Below are positions 8,674 to 45,334 of a stretch of DNA of 64,000 bases, in pieces; position 1 is the first letter of the stretch, and each line of letters starts with the position of its first letter. Source of the stretch: Liolophura sinensis (Eukaryota > Mollusca > Polyplacophora > Chitonida > Chitonidae). Below the pieces are notes generated by a model. That model did not search any database. It saw only the letters and a list, made by a program, of their open reading frames with translations, and was not told where the DNA came from. Made by a program: the position numbers and the translations under genes. The stretch spans positions 62,415,249-62,479,248 of the forward strand of contig NC_088295.1 in assembly GCF_032854445.1 (NCBI RefSeq), written 5' to 3'.

Positions 8674-8800
8674 ATGGGAACTGAAACTAACAAAGATGAT
8701 CGTAACTCACCCGAGTATTTACAACAGCTACTAAAAGACAAGAAGCAAATCCAAGCATTTCCAAATGTGTTTGTTCACTTGGAACGACTGTTGGACGATG
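8674..8800 (+). CDS. quaking exon 1 (start codon, QUA1)
   Basis: ATG at 8674 lies in a good context (AACATGG) and is the first ATG after the in-frame TAG at 8611. It encodes 42 codons plus one base, including [12 protein letters not shown] and HLERLLDD of the QUA1 homodimer helix-turn-helix. Donor GTAAGT at 8801, phase 1. Confidence 0.92.
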
Positions 8801-17800: not shown

Positions 17801-20800
17801 TAAAGATCACTTCCTATGTGTGAAAGTGCCATTGTATTTATATAAGTGAGGTAAGGAGTGTGGCATTACAACAGTGAAGTAAACAAAAATGTGACTGATC
17901 ACTTTTATTTGCTTTCAGAAATCAACAGAGTACGCATCACACTATTTCACAACAAAGGCTCTGATCGACCCTTGTTAAGTTTACCAGACCCAGTAGGACC
18001 CACGATAACCCTGTCAGAAAAAGTCTTCGTTCCTGTGAAAGAATTTCCTGATGTAAGTACAGCTACATTTAAGTATGAGACTGCTTTAGCTTCGAAGTAA
18101 TTAATTCTTAAATCCAAGAAAGAAGTTCTTTTCTGGAATTTTGGAGGCTTGATACCTTTTTTACAAACCTTTTCCTTGTTTCTGTTTTTAAACATTTTTT
18201 TTGCTCGGTTTCTGTTTTTGGAATGGGCAAACCTGTATCTGACAGGATCTCTACTGTCTTAACATTGATACACTTGGATGTGTTGGCATTTGGCCGGTAA
18301 ATGGAGATGTGAACACCTGCTTTGTACTCTGGCCCGCTTTTCTCTCTGAATATCAACACGTAATGGTGGAACCGTGGAGTTCAGGGTTTGGAAAATGAGT
18401 CACCGCTGGCGTAACACTGTGTACATAAATGTATATATGAACAAGTGTATCCAATGAGGAGTGTCCTGTTACCAGGATAGTTGAAGGGGTTTAGACCCAG
18501 AGATTTCATGACTTTCGAGATACAAGATCCGTTGAAGAGGTGTAAAACCTGGAAACATTTGGGTGCGATACGGTATGTCGAGGACCAGACTGAAGTTTCC
18601 TGGAATATATCTCCTGTTAAGTGCTAAATGTTTTGGTTCTGTTAAATTATTATAACTTATAATATCGGTTATTAATACAATTGCATAGGGAATTTTTTTT
18701 TCTTCACTTCATTCAAAGTTTTCACATTGGAGATTGAATAAATGAATGGCTTCTGAAAACATTTTCCTGTTGTTCCTGGACTGTGTGAACCGTACTGTAC
18801 ACAAAGTGGATGATGTACCTGTTGTTGAAATGTGAAGATTTGATGTGAGCATAATGAGAAAGCCGAATGTTGAGCATTGGAGTGAGCGGCGCAGAAACGG
18901 GGGTTAGGGGCGTCTGACCTTTTGATGTACATGTTTTGTGTAGCCAAAGCACTATGTGGTATCAACACATTGTCAAAATGGCCTCCCTGAAGAGTGATTA
19001 CAACGATATTAATGTCTGTGTAAACAACCACCCAGCCACTTGATGAAAGTTTCAAGAGACAAAGGAGCTGTTGGATACCCATAAAGTGTAGGCTGTGCTG
19101 TCAGGAAACCCTTGTCTGTCTTCAGGAAGCAGTTTGTGCTCTGGAACACGGCTCAAGGGTAAAAGTTAACCAGAAACGGATACGATCCTAACCATTGAAG
19201 CTGGAATGTTGCACCATGTGCAATCAGCATTATGCCATTGCTGAAACTGTTTAAAACTTGCCACCACCATCTGGATTACCCATGCTCTCCTGATGTATGT
19301 CCTTCCAGTCTCTAGGATGTATGGTCTGGAAGCGGGGTTGTAGTCACCTACAGACAAATTTGTTACGATTTCAACCCGTCAGGCCAGCTGTGGAGTTTTA
19401 ACTTCGCCATGACAAGTAGTACCTGTGGATAGTGTGTATGCCACATAACTGTGGATCTTCTCTTAGGCAGCGGTTACTTTACCCCATCGAGCACTGCAGT
19501 TCTAGTATTAAGGGATGGGATAATGAACCTGGGGCTTCCCACGCAGAGAAGTAATCTTGGCCAGAATCTCCAAACCGTCTCCTCTGATTAGTGTAAGAGC
19601 TGTCAGCTGGGCAGCCCCGCTTACTTCTCATTTTGAAATAATTAGAACAAAAACAAGGGATCTGGAAGCTGGGAGATGCCTCTCCCTTTGGTTCAGGTTT
19701 TAACTTTGTTCTGGTATTCAGTGATGACAATGATGGATCCAACAAACTTCCATACTATACGTGTCTGGCATGCTGCCAGTTTTAAGGGAAATTGTATCGT
19801 TATACGTTGAAGACAAGTTGTGCCTACCTCCAGTCACACAGTTGGGTCTGTTTGTGTACTTCAGTGTGAAATGTGGGGATAGGGTATATAGTGGGGATGT
19901 GTTACATAATGCTAAAAATGACATCTGCAAATAGTGTGTAATATTTGAGCAAATATTGTGTATGGCTGCATTATTTGTTACAGTAAAATTGATGTAGACT
20001 AAATTCCTCCTGGTCGAATTTGTTATCTGAACACTACTTTTGACTGTCAGTGAAAAGCATGTAGGAAGAAAAGTTTTTGAGGCATCTACATATGTATTAT
20101 GCTTTTGTCTGAAATTTTATTTAAACATTTTGGTCTAACATTTACCTAAATATATTTAGTCCAGACATCTTGTTCTACTTGATTCTTTAAGTACTGTAAT
20201 GTTTTTATACATGTATTTCCGGCTTCATCACTCAAACCTGTTAACCGTTAACACTAGGAAGTATATGTGCTATTCCATTTGGGCTATTCTGACAGTACAC
20301 ATATGGTACTGCTGCTTTTTTTATCATACATTTAGATGTATTAGGTTCCGCATCATAGCCCAGGTGGCTGCGCTTACGTGCACATGTATATGTGCCCCTG
20401 TATCTTAATGTAATGTAATCCGTGTTGTTTAGCCGCTTTGTATATGTTTAGGGCATATGAATTGGATAAGACATGTCTATGGTATCCAGATAGTATGTCG
20501 ATTAATATGCATCTTGATTTTTTTCTTGCAGTTTAATTTTGTCGGACGAATATTGGGTCCTCGTGGCATGACAGCTAAAGACTTGGAACACTACACTGGT
20601 TGTAAAGTTATGGTTAGAGGGAAAGGCTCAATGAGAGACAAGAAGAAGGTAAAGAGTTGTCTACCCTGATGGGAACTTGATACATGTAGATGTTGCATAC
20701 TCTTAAATTATTCTTTAATCCTGATCATGAAATAGTTACAATTTTGCGTTATTTGTTCATGGGAACCTTGATATGAGAACCAGTATTCTGCGTGATGATT

Positions 20801-23800
20801 TTGATCCACGTTAAGCCTGGCATACACATTAAGACTAGACACCTCAACCCAACTCATCTGGTCATACGGAGTTGGTCTCAGACTCTGATGGCGGGCAAAT
20901 GTGGCCGATCGGGTTGGCACGCCAGCACAGCGCAACGCAACCACACAGGAGCCTCTCACAAATGCAGTTGTTGTGGGTTAAAATCCAGCTCGCGCTGGCT
21001 TCCTCTAGAGCAGTATGTGAGATCAGCCCGCAACCTGTGGATGGTTGTGGGTTTGCCCAGTTTCCTCCCACCTTAATGCTGGCCCGTGCCATAAAAGTGA
21101 AATATTCTTGAGCACGGTGTTAAACACCAATCAAACAAATAAGTCAGATGCTGATGACCATACATCTTTGAATTGAACTGGCACACACATAACAGCTGGA
21201 GTAGAACTCCACTTGAGTTGCGTCATTTCACATTAATGAGGGCTTACAACCAAAGTCAGCTGTTGGATTGAGTTCAGTTAAGTTGGACCTTAAGCTTTGG
21301 TGTATACCAAGCTTAATGTGTGATGTGCAAGTTGGTTGTCTGGACTCCTCTGAACCTCCTTTTGGTGCATGTGTGTTTTACAGGAGGAACTAAACCGTGA
21401 CAAACCTAACTGGGGGCATTTGAATGAAGAACTGCATGTATTGATCACAGTGGAGGACACGCGCAATAGGGCAGAGGTGAAATTACAGAAAGCCCTGGAA
21501 GAAATCAAAAAGTTACTGGTACCAGCTGTAAGTATTGGGGATATAGCTACAGACTCCACCAAATTCCGACTGTTGTGAACATTGTAAATATGTCTGAAGC
21601 ATTGTTAGAATTTGTCTTATATACTCAGATATGTCCCATTGGTTCCCTCTGCATTTATATGCAAGTTGTCCAGTTATGAAGAGTTTTTGCAGATTTCCTA
21701 ATGAGTAAAAATCCGAGATAAAAACCATGGTGCCAGATATGTGTAGTTTCTTTTAACTATTTTAACATTTTGCTGCTCATCAAGGAGCCATATTCGTAAA
21801 CCTGCAGATTTTGTTGCGATTTTTGCTTCCTCAGTGTTCAGTAATCTGTACCTGACTGATGTTGAATTGATGTAGGTAGTTTTTTTGCGTAAGACTGACT
21901 GTACAACCCTATAGGTACATATATGGAGGAGAGCTTGTGTGGAAATGTACAGGTAGTCCCGTTTTGGCTTACGCTCTTTAGATTTGAAGATACTCAAGCC
22001 ATTGTTCTGCACTTGTTCTACTCAGATAGTCTTCCTTACTCAGGCCTAATCTTGTCCTCTAGTTTCAGTGCTATTCACAGGTTTTATGGCCCACTGTCAG
22101 CCAATGGTGAACTCCTAGCTTTAGGTGTGCTCAGGGGATATCCAGCTAGGGAACCTTTTGATCCTGCTATTGAGTATATGGTCACATTGGGATATTAGTG
22201 TCATTAATTTGTTGTGATCGGGGCATGTTTTGGTAGAACATTAGATTCTTAGGTATCTCATTACCTTGCGTCTAGTGCAACAGGTGTTTTGATATACAGG
22301 GCTATTATTTGTTTTTTTTTTTCAAATAAATCCAAGTGATACAAACTAAAGAATAGGATTGACCTTTGTTAGCTTTTCAATTGAAATTTGAAAGTATTGT
22401 TTTAATTTACTTGAAGATATTTACAGTGAGCGCTCATTTGGATCATTGATCACTGAAAAACCAGTGGGCGTTATGGTATACTTGTATTCATGTGAGGAAA
22501 GTATGCAGTCTGCAGGATTGCCTTCAGTTGGCTGTCAGGGCACCCCTGTTTTGGTCAAGTTTATTAGACAAGTGAAACCATTTTCATTTAAATGAATGTG
22601 TTCATTACAGGCTGAAGGGGAAGATAATTTGAAGAAGCAACAGTTGATGGAGTTAGCAATTCTTAATGGAACCTACAGGGATGGCAAAGTTCAGCCAATG
22701 CTTCAACCAGCAGCTTTTCATGCTTTTCGTAAGTGTTTCGAACCTCGGAAGGGTTTTTCTCTCGCTCCTCTACCTTGAAATGTACTAACCTTTTTGTGTA
22801 TAATGCTTTCTTGCAGCCTGAAGGGGAGGACGATTTAAAGAAGCGTCAGCTTATGGAGCTAGCTATCATAAACGGTACATACCGTGACACAAAAGCGTCC
22901 ACCACTTCAACGCCCCCCACCACAACGAATCGTAAGTTGCTGCGTTCAGTTAGCCTGCCCCTGGGGTCTTGATAGGTTGTGCTGTGGCCTGTGGGTCTGC
23001 TGACTGGACATGGAGTTTGAGCTGTGGCCAGTGCTGTTGATGTTAGCAAGAGACTTGCATGCTGCATGCTGTTGTTTCTGACACTTCCATTCTTGTTTAT
23101 TCATGCTTTCATTTCTTTCCTATGTAAGTTATTCTTTTTTCATAGCTCAGTTTTTCATTGGCTTTGTTCATTGGACATAATTTACAACCACATGCTGTTT
23201 AATAAACATCACTGGCATTGACGTAGCTTAGATGGGTTCTCTTATTCCACAATCTTAGATGGGTTCTCTTACTCCACAATCTTAGATGGGTTCTCTTACT
23301 CCACAATCTTAGACTTACACTAGAACAGATTTACAATGCTCATAGATGGAATCCCGTCTTTTCGCCGATAATTCTTTTTCTTCTCTTTAGCTACTTTTTG
23401 CTCACAGTTATCTGGTTTAGGAAGTGTTTGAACTTTCACAGGTATTCATTTGTGTGCTTTTGTTTCATCAGACATCAAGTCTATTTCCGCCTTGTTTACC
23501 CCCATCACGGGCTGGTGTTTTATTATCCATCCTCTCCCCTGTCATGGTTCTTGTGTAAATTTCTCTAGCCCTTGTCTCTGTCTTTCTGGTTGAATATACC
23601 CACACTTTGCAGTCTTATCATTATTTTTGGCTGTATTTATTTGGGTTTGTAGGTGCCTTACCCTTGTATGTATTTGTATCCATAACCTTAGCGTTTCAGT
23701 TGTGTCCTCCCCTCGCATGGCCGCAGTGTGATCATGGCAGCTGGTTATATAATCGTCACTGTGACAGATCATGTGTCACCATTCACACGCTGGATACTCA

Positions 23801-26800
23801 TCTACAGATGTCTTTTATATTTAGTCTTGTTAACTATTCACCGTGTATAATCAACTTTTTACAGGTATTATCTTGCTATATAATAATAATACATTTGTGT
23901 ATATTCTTACTAACACAGCTAATTTATGCAACATTTTCATGATTTGAATCCTCGTACACAGCAGAATCATCAAATAACTCGAAAATCGCATCCTTTCAAG
24001 CTCCAAATTACATTTACTTATTTCTTTTTTTACGATTAACAAAAATATTTTGAACTTGTGACTTTTTGATGGTTTTGCTGTGTTTTTTTTTACTCTGTTG
24101 TATTTGCAGTAATTATTCTAGAAGATATTTCTTTATTTGATCATAATTTCCATCCATCAGCTTGTAAGAAGCAACTTTTCAAATGAAGTCTTGTAAAATT
24201 TCATGTGCTTTTCCAGTTTCCTATGGATCTAAGTATCTTAGCTTTGAATTTCTGTGTGTTGTGAGATCGTTTGATAGAAATATTGGAGGATTTTTTGCTG
24301 CAAATTGACCACAAGTTTCCTCCTACCTGAGGATGCCATTGATTTAATGCTCACTGTTCATTGTGTACTACTTTCTAATTGTTGCCATGCTCACATACTC
24401 GGATTGTGTGCTGACTCGGTCAGCAGTTCGAGCTGTGACATTTCACCAGGTAAGCTGGGTTGCTTGCACAGTTACACATAATACATAATACATGTAACAG
24501 AAATGCTCTCCTAGTATTATATATAGGTGTTCACTTTAAGTTAATCTGCAACTGAAGTGAGGTTTGCCCGTTTCTAATTTAAAAAAAAAAAAAGGTCTGT
24601 AGAAGTTGACAGACACTTTATATTTCAAAGTAAACTGTGTTCAGCCATAATATGACCAATTTGATGTCATAATGTTCACTTTACCCACATGGATAAAGTA
24701 CATATATCTTAATCTATTTTGGAGAGGACAACAATTAAAATTATTTTAAAAATTTAAGCCAGAGATTCAACAAAAGTTTATAATTTTGAAAAATTGGCCA
24801 GTTTGCTGAAGATTTCATTTTGTTGGTAACTTTTTCTTGTTGATTCTTTATTCATGAATTGAATCACCTGTAAATGAAATTTTGTGACAGAATACTGAAC
24901 TTGTTTCATAAACATTAACATTGATATATTCTCAACCCTGCCATCGTGTGAAAGTAAACGTTTTCAAAGGGAATTAAAAGGCGTAAATATGTTTAAAACT
25001 TTTTTAAGCACACATTTTATGGAGCATAAAAGTTAACGCATGTTAATAGCGTGACCTTCTCTGAGTAAAGACGCGTTATCTGTGTGATACTGTGTTGATG
25101 ATCTGCTGCCTTTCTCTTCCACAGAATCGCCTCGAATGATTCCTGCTCATGCAATGACCATTCCACAGATGCGCTCACCAACGCCAGCGGGGCACCCGAT
25201 CATCCTGACCCCACGAATACCCACGGCAACACCTCAACATGGGGGAATTCTGAGTGGAGGTCCACCACCGCTAGTCTCCCCTTCGGAAGCCGCTGCTGGG
25301 TTGATATATACCAATCCATTTGAGTACCCGTATGCGGCGTTCACCTCGCCTGCGGCCACCACTCTCCTGGAGTACCCCACCCTCGATCAAGCTGCTGCTG
25401 GTATGTCTGTTTTCATGGTTCATCACCACCACCATATGGCCCAAAATGGCACCGCTGCTGACCCCCATAACCTAGACCAACAGCACAACGGACACGGGGG
25501 CCACATGGACCCCACGATACATAACCATTTACATAGCCATAAAGAAGGGGTCTGGCTCTCTGCCTAAGTCACATTGGTCCAGGCTCTTGTGCAAGTTTAA
25601 ACTGTGCCCGTGGGACATATACTGGCTGTGATGTGAAACTTAATGTGTAGTTAGAATTTTACATGGTATGCATGTATGGATTTGTTTTTTTTTGTTTGTT
25701 TTTTTTTTGTTTTTTTTTTAGTAAATTGTCCCTTTATGTCAAACATTGAGGATTGAAAAGAGAACACATTGTATTAATAAATGTATTGAGTATTACACAT
25801 TGCTCTTGCCAACCATGACATTATCAAACAGTAGTAAGAAACAAGATGTATTAGTAAAACAATAGCCAAAAAGGTGAGCATTTGAAACTGGTAGCAAGGC
25901 CAACAAACTTTAAAGATAATGCTATTAGCTTAAAAACTGATCCAAATCTGAACACTGCTATCTGGTGGAAATTGAACTTTTGCGCGTCACTCTTATTATT
26001 GCTGGAGTAAGCAGGGGAAGATTTATCAGGTGGCCAGACCCATATCATTTTGTTAAAAAAAGAATCTTCACTCACAGAAAGTGGGTATATATTCTTTATT
26101 TCACCTAAAATTGGTATGCAAAATGCACTTTCAGGATCACATAAAGGCCTTAAAATGAAATGAAAATCTAAATTTTTCTGACAAGAAAAATCAAACTTCC
26201 CAAGAAACTTCAAGCCCTAGAAATTGGATGAATCAATCAGAATCGAGCAAAATGTTGCTTGAAAGGTGCTAAACTTCAGGTGAAATACAGAATATAAAGT
26301 ATGTAGCAGTTCATGGAGGCCAGATAGGACGTAACTGTAAAGTGCAACGTATTGTTGTAATGTTTGGGAGTGTTGATTCTCAGCACTGTCATTGGTACTT
26401 TCTATTTGTCACAGGAGTGAGATAGCACAAGTCTTCACAGGTGATTTTTTTAATTAAGACAAAGAAGGTGATTATCTTGGTGTAGTTTCACCGGGCTGAT
26501 CTCACAATAACCCGTCGAGTTGCCGTCTCTTTCCTAGCTCTGTTCCCTGTGGACATGTTCGTTGCATTTGTCTAATATCTGATCACCCTCGGTGTTTTAA
26601 GCAAAAAACAAAAATGACACTGGCTTGGTGATGGTCACCTATTGACTGAACTACGGTTAACTCATTGTTGTCACGACAGTATTATTAGACTTATAATAAC
26701 AATAAGGCTTAAACTAGACCTGAAGGTCGGTGTTTTATTAATGTCTATTATACGTAACTATGTTGCTTGTTTGTTTTCCTGTGCATATGGTCCATTACCC

Positions 26801-43950: not shown

Positions 43951-44075
43951 TTGTGAATTGTTTGCTAGTTGAGTTGAATGTGCTTTTCTTTTCACGAGAT
44001 TCTTGGTCTCAGAATGCAGCTTAAGGAACATAAATCGCAGAACTGTTGCATTCGCATTTAGATGCAACAGAGACC

Positions 44076-45117
44076 ATGTCACATCTGAGTGCTGATGAAC
44101 GTCAAAGAGTCATGGGCAACATTGAGGCAGGTTGGAACGTCTTGTGTCGCCAGGCATTATGGTACTCATCAGTCCACCATATACAGACTCACTGAACGCT
44201 ACCAGGAGACAAACACCATTAATGACTGTGCTGAGAACGGACGACCTCGTGTGACGTCAAACCGTCAACACCGCTTGGTTGTCAATTCCCATCGTCGGAA
44301 TCGGTTCCTGTAAGCAGCCACTACAGCTCGAAACACACTTGGAACAACGAACAGATCCCATTAGCGCCAATACTGTACGTTGCCGACTCAACGACGCGGG
44401 TTTGCGTTGTCGTCGACCTTATGTTTGTTCACGTTTGATTCCGCGTCACAGACGCGCTCGACTTAACTGGACCGCGGAACTGGCCTAAAGGGCAATGGGA
44501 GAATATCGATTCTTTTCGATTTTGCATCGACGCAGTGGACGGCCAAGTGAGAGTATGGCGACATAGAGGGGGAAAGTTCAGTAATCCATGTGTATTGGAG
44601 AATGGCCTTTGGGGAGGGCCTTCCGTCACGCTTTGGGGGGGGGGGGGGGAGGGGGGGGGAGCGCAATCAGCTGGGGACGTCAGGTTCCGCCTGTGATCTC
44701 CCAAAACAATGGACAGAGACGTGGAAGAGATGTCACAGCGCAGCGCTACGTCGATGAAGTGTTGAGGCCTGTAGTCGTTCCATTTTTTGCTCGAAGACGC
44801 AATCTTGTTCTACAGCAAAATAATGCAAGAGCACATACTGCAAGATTGACGCAGACATTTCTACTGAACAACGGCATCCTGACGATGGATTGGCCAGGTT
44901 TAAGTCCGGATTTAACTCCTATCGAGCACCTCTGGAATGAAATTGAACGCCGCATTTGCCATCAACTTATGCAGCCAGTTGCCTTGCAACAACTGCAACA
45001 AAGCGTCGTTGACACTTACAATAACATTCTTCGGAGGTTCATCCAAGTCTCTTCACCAGCACGGGTAGAAGATGTGCTGCTGTTGTTGACGCTAATGGGG
45101 GTCACACTCGTTATTGA
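44076..45117 (+). pseudogene. broken Tc1/mariner-type transposase
   Basis: Tc1-family DDE transposases cut and paste DNA at TA sites. Recognisable parts in order: an N-terminal SADERQRVMG segment; the helix-turn-helix (ARHYGTHQSTIYRL, ENGRPRVTS); ISANTVRCRLNDAGLRCRRP; the catalytic-core VDGQVRVWRHRG; VLQQNNARAHTA; and SPDLTPIEHLWNEIERR with the final acidic residue. It ends near a GGHTRY-like terminus at 45117. The frame changes near 44130, 44355, 44475, 44640 (within a long G-run) and 45050, and a stop lies at 44311. The second catalytic Asp of the usual QQDNARPH motif is Asn here. Terminal inverted repeats were not found. It is inactive. Confidence 0.88.
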
Positions 45118-45334
45118 CGTTAATTTTTATTCCATCGGAAATACAATCCCCAAAAGGCGTGGCTGTTGAGGCAGATTAAATGAGTTCTCCCATTTCCATT
45201 TATTCAGAAGAATCAGTACGATATGAGTTTTTATTCTCTTGTTGTGTAAGAAAAATATGATTTAATCAAGTCAACCGGCTCTCACTCGTTTGCAATTTAT
45301 ACTATTTCTTCCATTCGCGTTTCTTTCGGAATTT

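Follow-up and report, generated by a model that had tools for sequence, protein, structure and literature searches.

Tandem alternative exons are a familiar type of gene structure, and QKI isoforms with alternative C-termini are likewise known. To our knowledge, the isoforms of quaking vary at the ends of the protein and not in the RNA-binding domain, the last part of which, in STAR proteins, is QUA2. Two exon pairs in other genes come close to the case presented here: in U2AF1, the isoform U2AF35c holds both tandem exons, and the pair in let-2 of C. elegans was reportedly described by Ohno in 2008 as mutually exclusive. According to published reports, exons Ab and 3 of U2AF1 (U2AF35) are tandem one-of-two exons in a factor of the branch point and 3′ splice site (PMC5224494, PMC6821156), the choice between them depends on the layout of the branch point and the pyrimidine tract, and U2AF35c is mentioned as a third isoform (PMC5224494). 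The let-2 pair is controlled by the quaking orthologue ASD-2 (PMC3469465, PMC2905418).

The way in which quaking proteins act on exons has been studied in mammalian cells. It was reported that SF1 activates and QKI represses exons with an ACUAA branch site, that occupancy by QKI blocks the binding of SF1, and that repression is strongest with two elements (PMC13004596). For example, both ACUAAC elements of RAI14 exon 11 are needed for efficient skipping (PMC13004596). Competition between SF1 and QKI was also found for NUMB exon 12 and a reporter RNA (PMC3983035). Moreover, UACUAAY in the downstream intron was tied to inclusion in muscle and to the opposite in brain (PMC13004596). Here, we describe a quaking gene that, on balance, probably combines two tandem, alternatively used QUA2 exons with a feedback of quaking and SF1 on the choice between them.

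Gene structure and the tandem QUA2 exons

The window, i.e., the whole 64-kb stretch of DNA analysed, carries, on the plus strand of contig C1 of a 609-Mb genome, the 5′ portion and the middle of a quaking/HOW gene (Table 1). The upstream part of the gene model (exons 1 to 4) reads open across the joins. AG precedes every exon except exon 1, which was taken from the start codon, and GT follows each of them, including a possible 5′ splice site at 25401 directly after exon 6. If this site is not used, exon 6 would extend through 25401-25567 and end in a stop after a His-rich tail, which might serve as an alternative C-terminus. HPYQR/PYQR is the C-terminal stretch of vertebrate-type quaking; it was sought on the plus strand of the window and none was found, nor was the 3′ end of the gene beyond 25400. 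Further along the window, reading frames at about 44030-45170 resemble in translation a broken transposase, which we take to be of the Tc1/mariner type.

Table 1. Positions in the window of the quaking exons and of the elements around exons A and B
Feature	Position	Strand	Content	Basis
Quaking exon 1	8674..8800	+	Start codon, most of QUA1 (dimerisation)	Gene model and PF16544
Quaking exon 2	17919..18052	+	End of QUA1, start of KH	Open across joins, GT-AG borders
Quaking exon 3	20532..20648	+	KH core	PF22675, 61.4 bits
Quaking exon 4	21384..21527	+	KH end, as far as the border with QUA2	Gene model
Alternative exon A	22611..22728	+	118 nt; QUA2 closer to vertebrate QKI and 15-residue tail, no Ser/Thr	
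A-B intron	22729..22816	+	88 nt; no unusual fold	
Candidate branch point of B and bipartite Quaking-type site	22783..22804	+	TACTAACctttttgtgtaTAAT / TACTAACCTTTTTGTGTATAAT	Motif scan
Alternative exon B	22817..22931	+	115 nt; QUA2 relatively closer to GLD-1 and 14-residue tail, 9 Ser/Thr	
Second bipartite Quaking-type site	23908..23923	+	TACTAACACAGCTAAT; intron after exon B	Motif scan
Quaking exon 6	25125..25400	+	Start of the C-terminal region	Frame kept only if A or B alone precedes

In the Pfam search of the spliced protein, the QUA1 dimerisation region (PF16544, 85.4 bits against a cut-off of 26.3) and the STAR-type KH domain (PF22675, with a cut-off of 30 bits) were both present, and they exceeded the cut-offs in the A version as well as in the B version. 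Exon 4 joined to A scored 123.3 bits against QKI (4jvh), 93.6 against GLD-1 (4jvy), 41.6 against T-STAR (5elr) and 25.8 against SF1 (1k1g); the corresponding scores for exon 4 joined to B were 118.6, 101.4, 39.3 and 29.7 bits. The gene belongs to the Quaking/HOW/GLD-1 branch of the STAR proteins, its KH end and QUA2 being nearest to QKI and GLD-1 and not to T-STAR or SF1.

The profile of the STAR dimerisation family matched a single place in the whole genome. The protein search of the genome with E up to 10 gave seven matches, four of which are exons of the quaking gene itself. Another (L006, E 0.018) belongs to what we take, from its QUA2 sequence, to be an SF1-like gene, in whose 3.1 kb the motif scan found one QUA2 exon. 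The remaining two are weak, i.e., L007 (E 0.068), to which the motif scan gave no identity, and C5:4842205 (E 1.58). A paralogous second quaking gene was not found in the genome searches, which gave one locus and with which matches may be missed. Similarly, no relative of the quaking protein was confirmed among the 40 + 186 pattern matches in viral and prokaryote contigs.

Exons A and B are each preceded by AG and followed by GTAAGT, and both are entered in phase 0 and left in phase 1. Their QUA2 parts are identical at 20 of 24 residues and 52 of 72 nucleotides, and the tails are unalike. The resemblance is not due to chance, since a direct repeat of 77 nt, 74% identical between the copies, extends from the splice site across the exon. 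No third copy was found among repeats of at least 30 nt in 21300-25400, nor in the genome search. The intron after exon B contains, at 23227-23313, three copies of another repeat at a spacing of 27 bp.

The joins of exon 4 to A to exon 6 and of exon 4 to B to exon 6 are both open. When A and B are joined, the reading ends in ...HAFP-stop, with a TGA at the A-B junction, and when both are skipped it ends after four codons in ...NRLE-stop. The gist of this had been put forward in an earlier note on this DNA, and recomputation from the sequence bears it out: the positions of the two exons, the 20 shared residues followed by unrelated tails, the matching phases and both stops are correct, and the conclusion that only one-of-two splicing would be productive holds for the predicted transcripts. 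Adjacent homologous exons with the same phases, predicted to be non-productive when both or neither is included, are the hallmarks of mutually exclusive tandem duplicated exons, and regulated use of one of the two, A or B, is highly probable. As a general rule, an early stop well before the next junction leads to RNA decay. In the A+B RNA, the stop would come as soon as B begins, with about 110 nt left to the next junction, and therefore decay of this RNA is to be expected; decay of the double-skip RNA depends on the exons beyond 25400.

Divergence between exons A and B

Within the QUA2 parts, 12 codons differ silently between A and B, four differ with a change of residue and eight are identical. 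The Nei-Gojobori method gave a pS of 0.95 (13.5 of 14.2 sites) and a pN of 0.11, with dS beyond estimation. When 20 changes were placed at random in A without producing stops, the number of residue changes averaged 12.8 with a minimum of 7, and none of the 20,000 placements had as few as the four observed. Both copies look alive, because 12 of the 20 codons for the same residue differ silently and none of the random trials was as conservative. Both exons look functional, with purifying selection acting between the copies. The decay of one exon, an objection that the earlier note had raised against its own reading, is rejected in view of the substitution pattern; the frames are intact and no sign of decay was seen in either exon.

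The QUA2 of A shares 22 of 24 residues with vertebrate QKI and 17 of 24 with nematode GLD-1, and that of B shares 20 and 19 of 24, respectively. The description of the two copies as vertebrate-like and fly-like in the earlier note is supported in its first half, A being nearer to vertebrate QKI than B is; B was compared with the nematode protein. As A and B share 20 of 24 residues, the same number as B and vertebrate QKI, the protein distances point to an old duplication, with 24 residues being too few for dating.

The variable QUA2 positions (A/B) are 1 (A/P), 6 (N/D), 10 (Q/R) and 18 (L/I). In QKI, K190 and Q193 contact RNA, and the double mutant of both residues bound RNA in vitro with about two-fold lower affinity and gave a cross-linking signal that was reduced five-fold (PMC5626755). 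Counting from G185 and D187, which are named in that report (PMC5626755), the equivalents of K190 and Q193 are by position residues 8 and 11 of the exon, and they are the same in A and B. For this reason, RNA binding may hardly differ between the two versions. By the same count, the Q (A) versus R (B) difference would fall on residue 192, between the two contact residues. As to the putative binding of ACUAA RNA by the predicted protein, K190 and Q193 are kept by position in both exons.

The tails are different in another respect. That of A has no Ser or Thr among 15 residues, whereas that of B has nine among 14, with one Thr-Pro, and a difference in phosphorylation is the natural guess. That the A and B versions would differ in RNA binding or in its control, through residue 192 and the Ser/Thr-rich tail found in B only, is the weakest part of our interpretation.

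The branch point of exon B and models of exon choice

At the 3′ splice site of exon B, UACUAAC is followed after a gap of 11 nt by a UAAU half-site. The presumed branch A at 22788 lies 28 nt before exon B and 60 nt past the end of exon A. From its sequence, this element is likely the branch point and at once a bipartite Quaking-type site. The reading of the locus in the earlier note, i.e., tandem exons of which one at a time is productive, stands as far as it goes, and the Quaking-type branch point is absent from it. In the 100 nt upstream of each of the six modelled 3′ splice sites, TACTAAC or ACTAAY was seen for exon B only, and the last 100 nt upstream of exon A contain no UACUAAC/UAAU element. 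Exon B has 11 pyrimidines in the 17 positions before its AG; exon A has 8 of 17, the fewest of the six sites (9 to 14 in the others).

Control 3′ splice sites were taken from myosin and chaperonin loci. Of 55 loci, 23 were dropped by a simple scoring rule before counting (no clear 3′ splice site or a duplicate one), which left 14 of 30 myosin and 18 of 25 chaperonin loci. In the last 100 nt upstream, TACTAAC was found at 1 of these 32 sites, ACTAAY at 2 and ACTAAY..TAAY at none. The sole control site with TACTAAC (L034) lies upstream of a myosin exon match and has its TAAY half-site upstream, a possible quaking-regulated myosin exon. Elsewhere on C1, 26642195-26642299 and 26643291-26643386 are neighbouring myosin-head exons whose profile matches almost coincide (positions 118-152 and 121-152); they are likely alternative exons of a muscle myosin heavy chain gene. 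One muscle-myosin exon had its highest score against PDB entry 3i5f (155.5 bits), followed by 1dfk and related entries (139.4 bits); as these proteins come from squid and scallop, the animal is likely a mollusc.

The strict motif, TACTAACN1-20TAAY, was fixed after inspection of the sequence. It occurs twice in the window, the two strands taken together, both times on the sense strand and on either side of exon B, and the two matches fall within 3.6 kb around exons A and B. The count for the whole window is not above chance (mean of 2.49 in shuffled sequences, with at least two in 64 of 100 shuffles); what stands out is only the placement of the matches, an observation made post hoc. Shuffling of the intronic sequence that surrounds the exons (3,364 nt) gave two strict matches in none of 2,000 trials (mean 0.04), and shuffling of the 88-nt intron gave one match in 5 of 5,000. 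The looser motif ACTAAY..TAAY has 13 matches on the plus strand of the window and four on the minus strand, and when those 3,364 intronic nt were shuffled 2,000 times, two such matches were reached in 97 cases. A further bipartite quaking-type element, ACTAACAAAGATGATCGTAAC (ACTAAC..TAAC), is found in coding sequence at 8686-8706, just past the quaking start codon; quaking might control its own translation through it, or it may have arisen by chance.

If the process known from mammalian cells is transferred to this gene, SF1 would bind UACUAAC and bring about the use of exon B, and a quaking dimer would bind the bipartite element and displace SF1. With scarce nuclear quaking, SF1 would sit on the branch point of B and exon B would be the default; with plentiful quaking, this branch point would be covered and exon A would be used. 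Double inclusion and double skipping would be removed by the frame, as both lead to stops and hence to no full protein, and the site downstream of B (23908) may assist B or act by looping it out. The role of B as default at low quaking is suggested by its better branch point and by its richer pyrimidine tract (11 versus 8 of 17). Because the layout of exon B is like that of QKI-repressed exons and an SF1-like gene is present in the genome, such a feedback of quaking and SF1 on the exon choice would be the simplest model, and we consider that it could equally well be right or wrong.

The feedback may be extended to a self-referential toggle, in which quaking would pick its own RNA-binding domain at one branch point of its own pre-mRNA and A and B would stand for cell states. 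The loop could hold an A state or a B state if the two domains differ in strength or phosphorylation. Sex-lethal holds a cell state by a different route. The same extension takes the pair as possibly very old, in keeping with A being nearest to vertebrate QKI and B relatively nearer to GLD-1; the A type would have persisted in vertebrates and the B type in ecdysozoans. Both parts together are improbable.

The arguments for quaking as the regulator have to be weighed against control by other factors. A and B could be tissue-specific mutually exclusive exons under PTB-, CELF- or Fox-like proteins, with UACUAAC simply a strong branch point and no self-regulation involved, which is possible but somewhat doubtful. 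As UACUAAC is also an ideal branch-point sequence, and as such found at one of the 32 control sites, its regulatory meaning may be nil, and tandem duplicated exon events have been reported to be enriched for tissue specificity (PMC9741552). However, the spacing of the half-site, the second site past B and the lack of such elements at the other five 3′ splice sites fit quaking better.

A switch of quantity would make use of the same branch point. Quaking would mask B and, A being weak, mostly double skipping or joining would follow, with stops and less quaking as the result, the two exons being otherwise equivalent. The early stops produced by both double skipping and double inclusion, and the pyrimidine-poor 3′ splice site of exon A, are in line with this, but equivalent exons would leave no clear reason for the full divergence of the tails (Ser/Thr 9 of 14 versus 0 of 15) beside conserved helices, and we regard such a switch as quite unlikely.

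In Dscam and tropomyosin, exclusion is achieved by RNA docking sites or branch-point crowding. Paired docking sites or crowding of this kind are very unlikely to be the cause here, although the A-B intron is short (88 nt) and two inverted repeats lie around or in the exons: 21576-21593 with 23325-23342 (18 nt, 89%) brackets both exons, and 21595-21613 with 22687-22705 (19 nt, 79%) reaches into exon A. These are two of the five inverted repeats of at least 14 nt in 21384-25400, a number counted without a chance estimate; the other three consist of A/T runs, and no alternation of one docking site with two selectors was recognised among the five. The fold of the 88-nt intron is no better than that of shuffled sequences (z -0.24, with 72 of 200 shuffles as good), and the 60 nt between the end of exon A and the branch A are not clearly too short for splicing of A to B. 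Lastly, that one exon is a relic or hardly ever used is most improbable, given the intact frames, the GTAAGT 5′ splice sites and matching phases of both, and the strong protein conservation with near-saturated synonymous change.

Comparison with described systems

A choice of RNA-binding exon in quaking, HOW, GLD-1 or ASD-2 was not found among the matches listed for open-access titles and abstracts, with subscription journals and database annotations outside this search, which agrees with the opinion of the earlier note that no quaking gene with a choice inside the RNA-binding domain has been described. Both isoforms may well be present already, without having been noticed, in automatically generated mollusc gene annotations. 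The natural QUA2 pair is a ready-made experiment on the contribution of QUA2 to the choice of RNA, and the branch-point site allows a direct test of whether quaking uses the SF1/QKI competition on itself. If relatives share the arrangement, this would tell whether the feedback is ancient.

Compared with the described members of the family, the locus differs in the place of the choice. The report on HOW gives isoforms with alternative C-termini and a STAR domain common to all (PMC12868882), and that on asd-2 gives alternative first exons (PMC3469465), whereas here the choice would lie inside the STAR domain. The let-2 pair is likewise connected with a quaking orthologue, but it sits in a collagen gene and not in the regulator's own gene. 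In RAI14 exon 11 and NUMB exon 12, as predicted here for exon B, a two-part quaking element sits on the branch point of the exon that is regulated (PMC13004596, PMC3983035); those are exons of other genes for which the competition was shown, whereas here it is quaking's own RNA-binding exon and we infer the competition. U2AF1 is similar in that the tandem one-of-two exons lie in the gene of a factor acting at the branch point and 3′ splice site. It belongs to another protein family, however, and its factor helps the recognition of the site, whereas the product of the present gene would be expected to block one of its own branch points.
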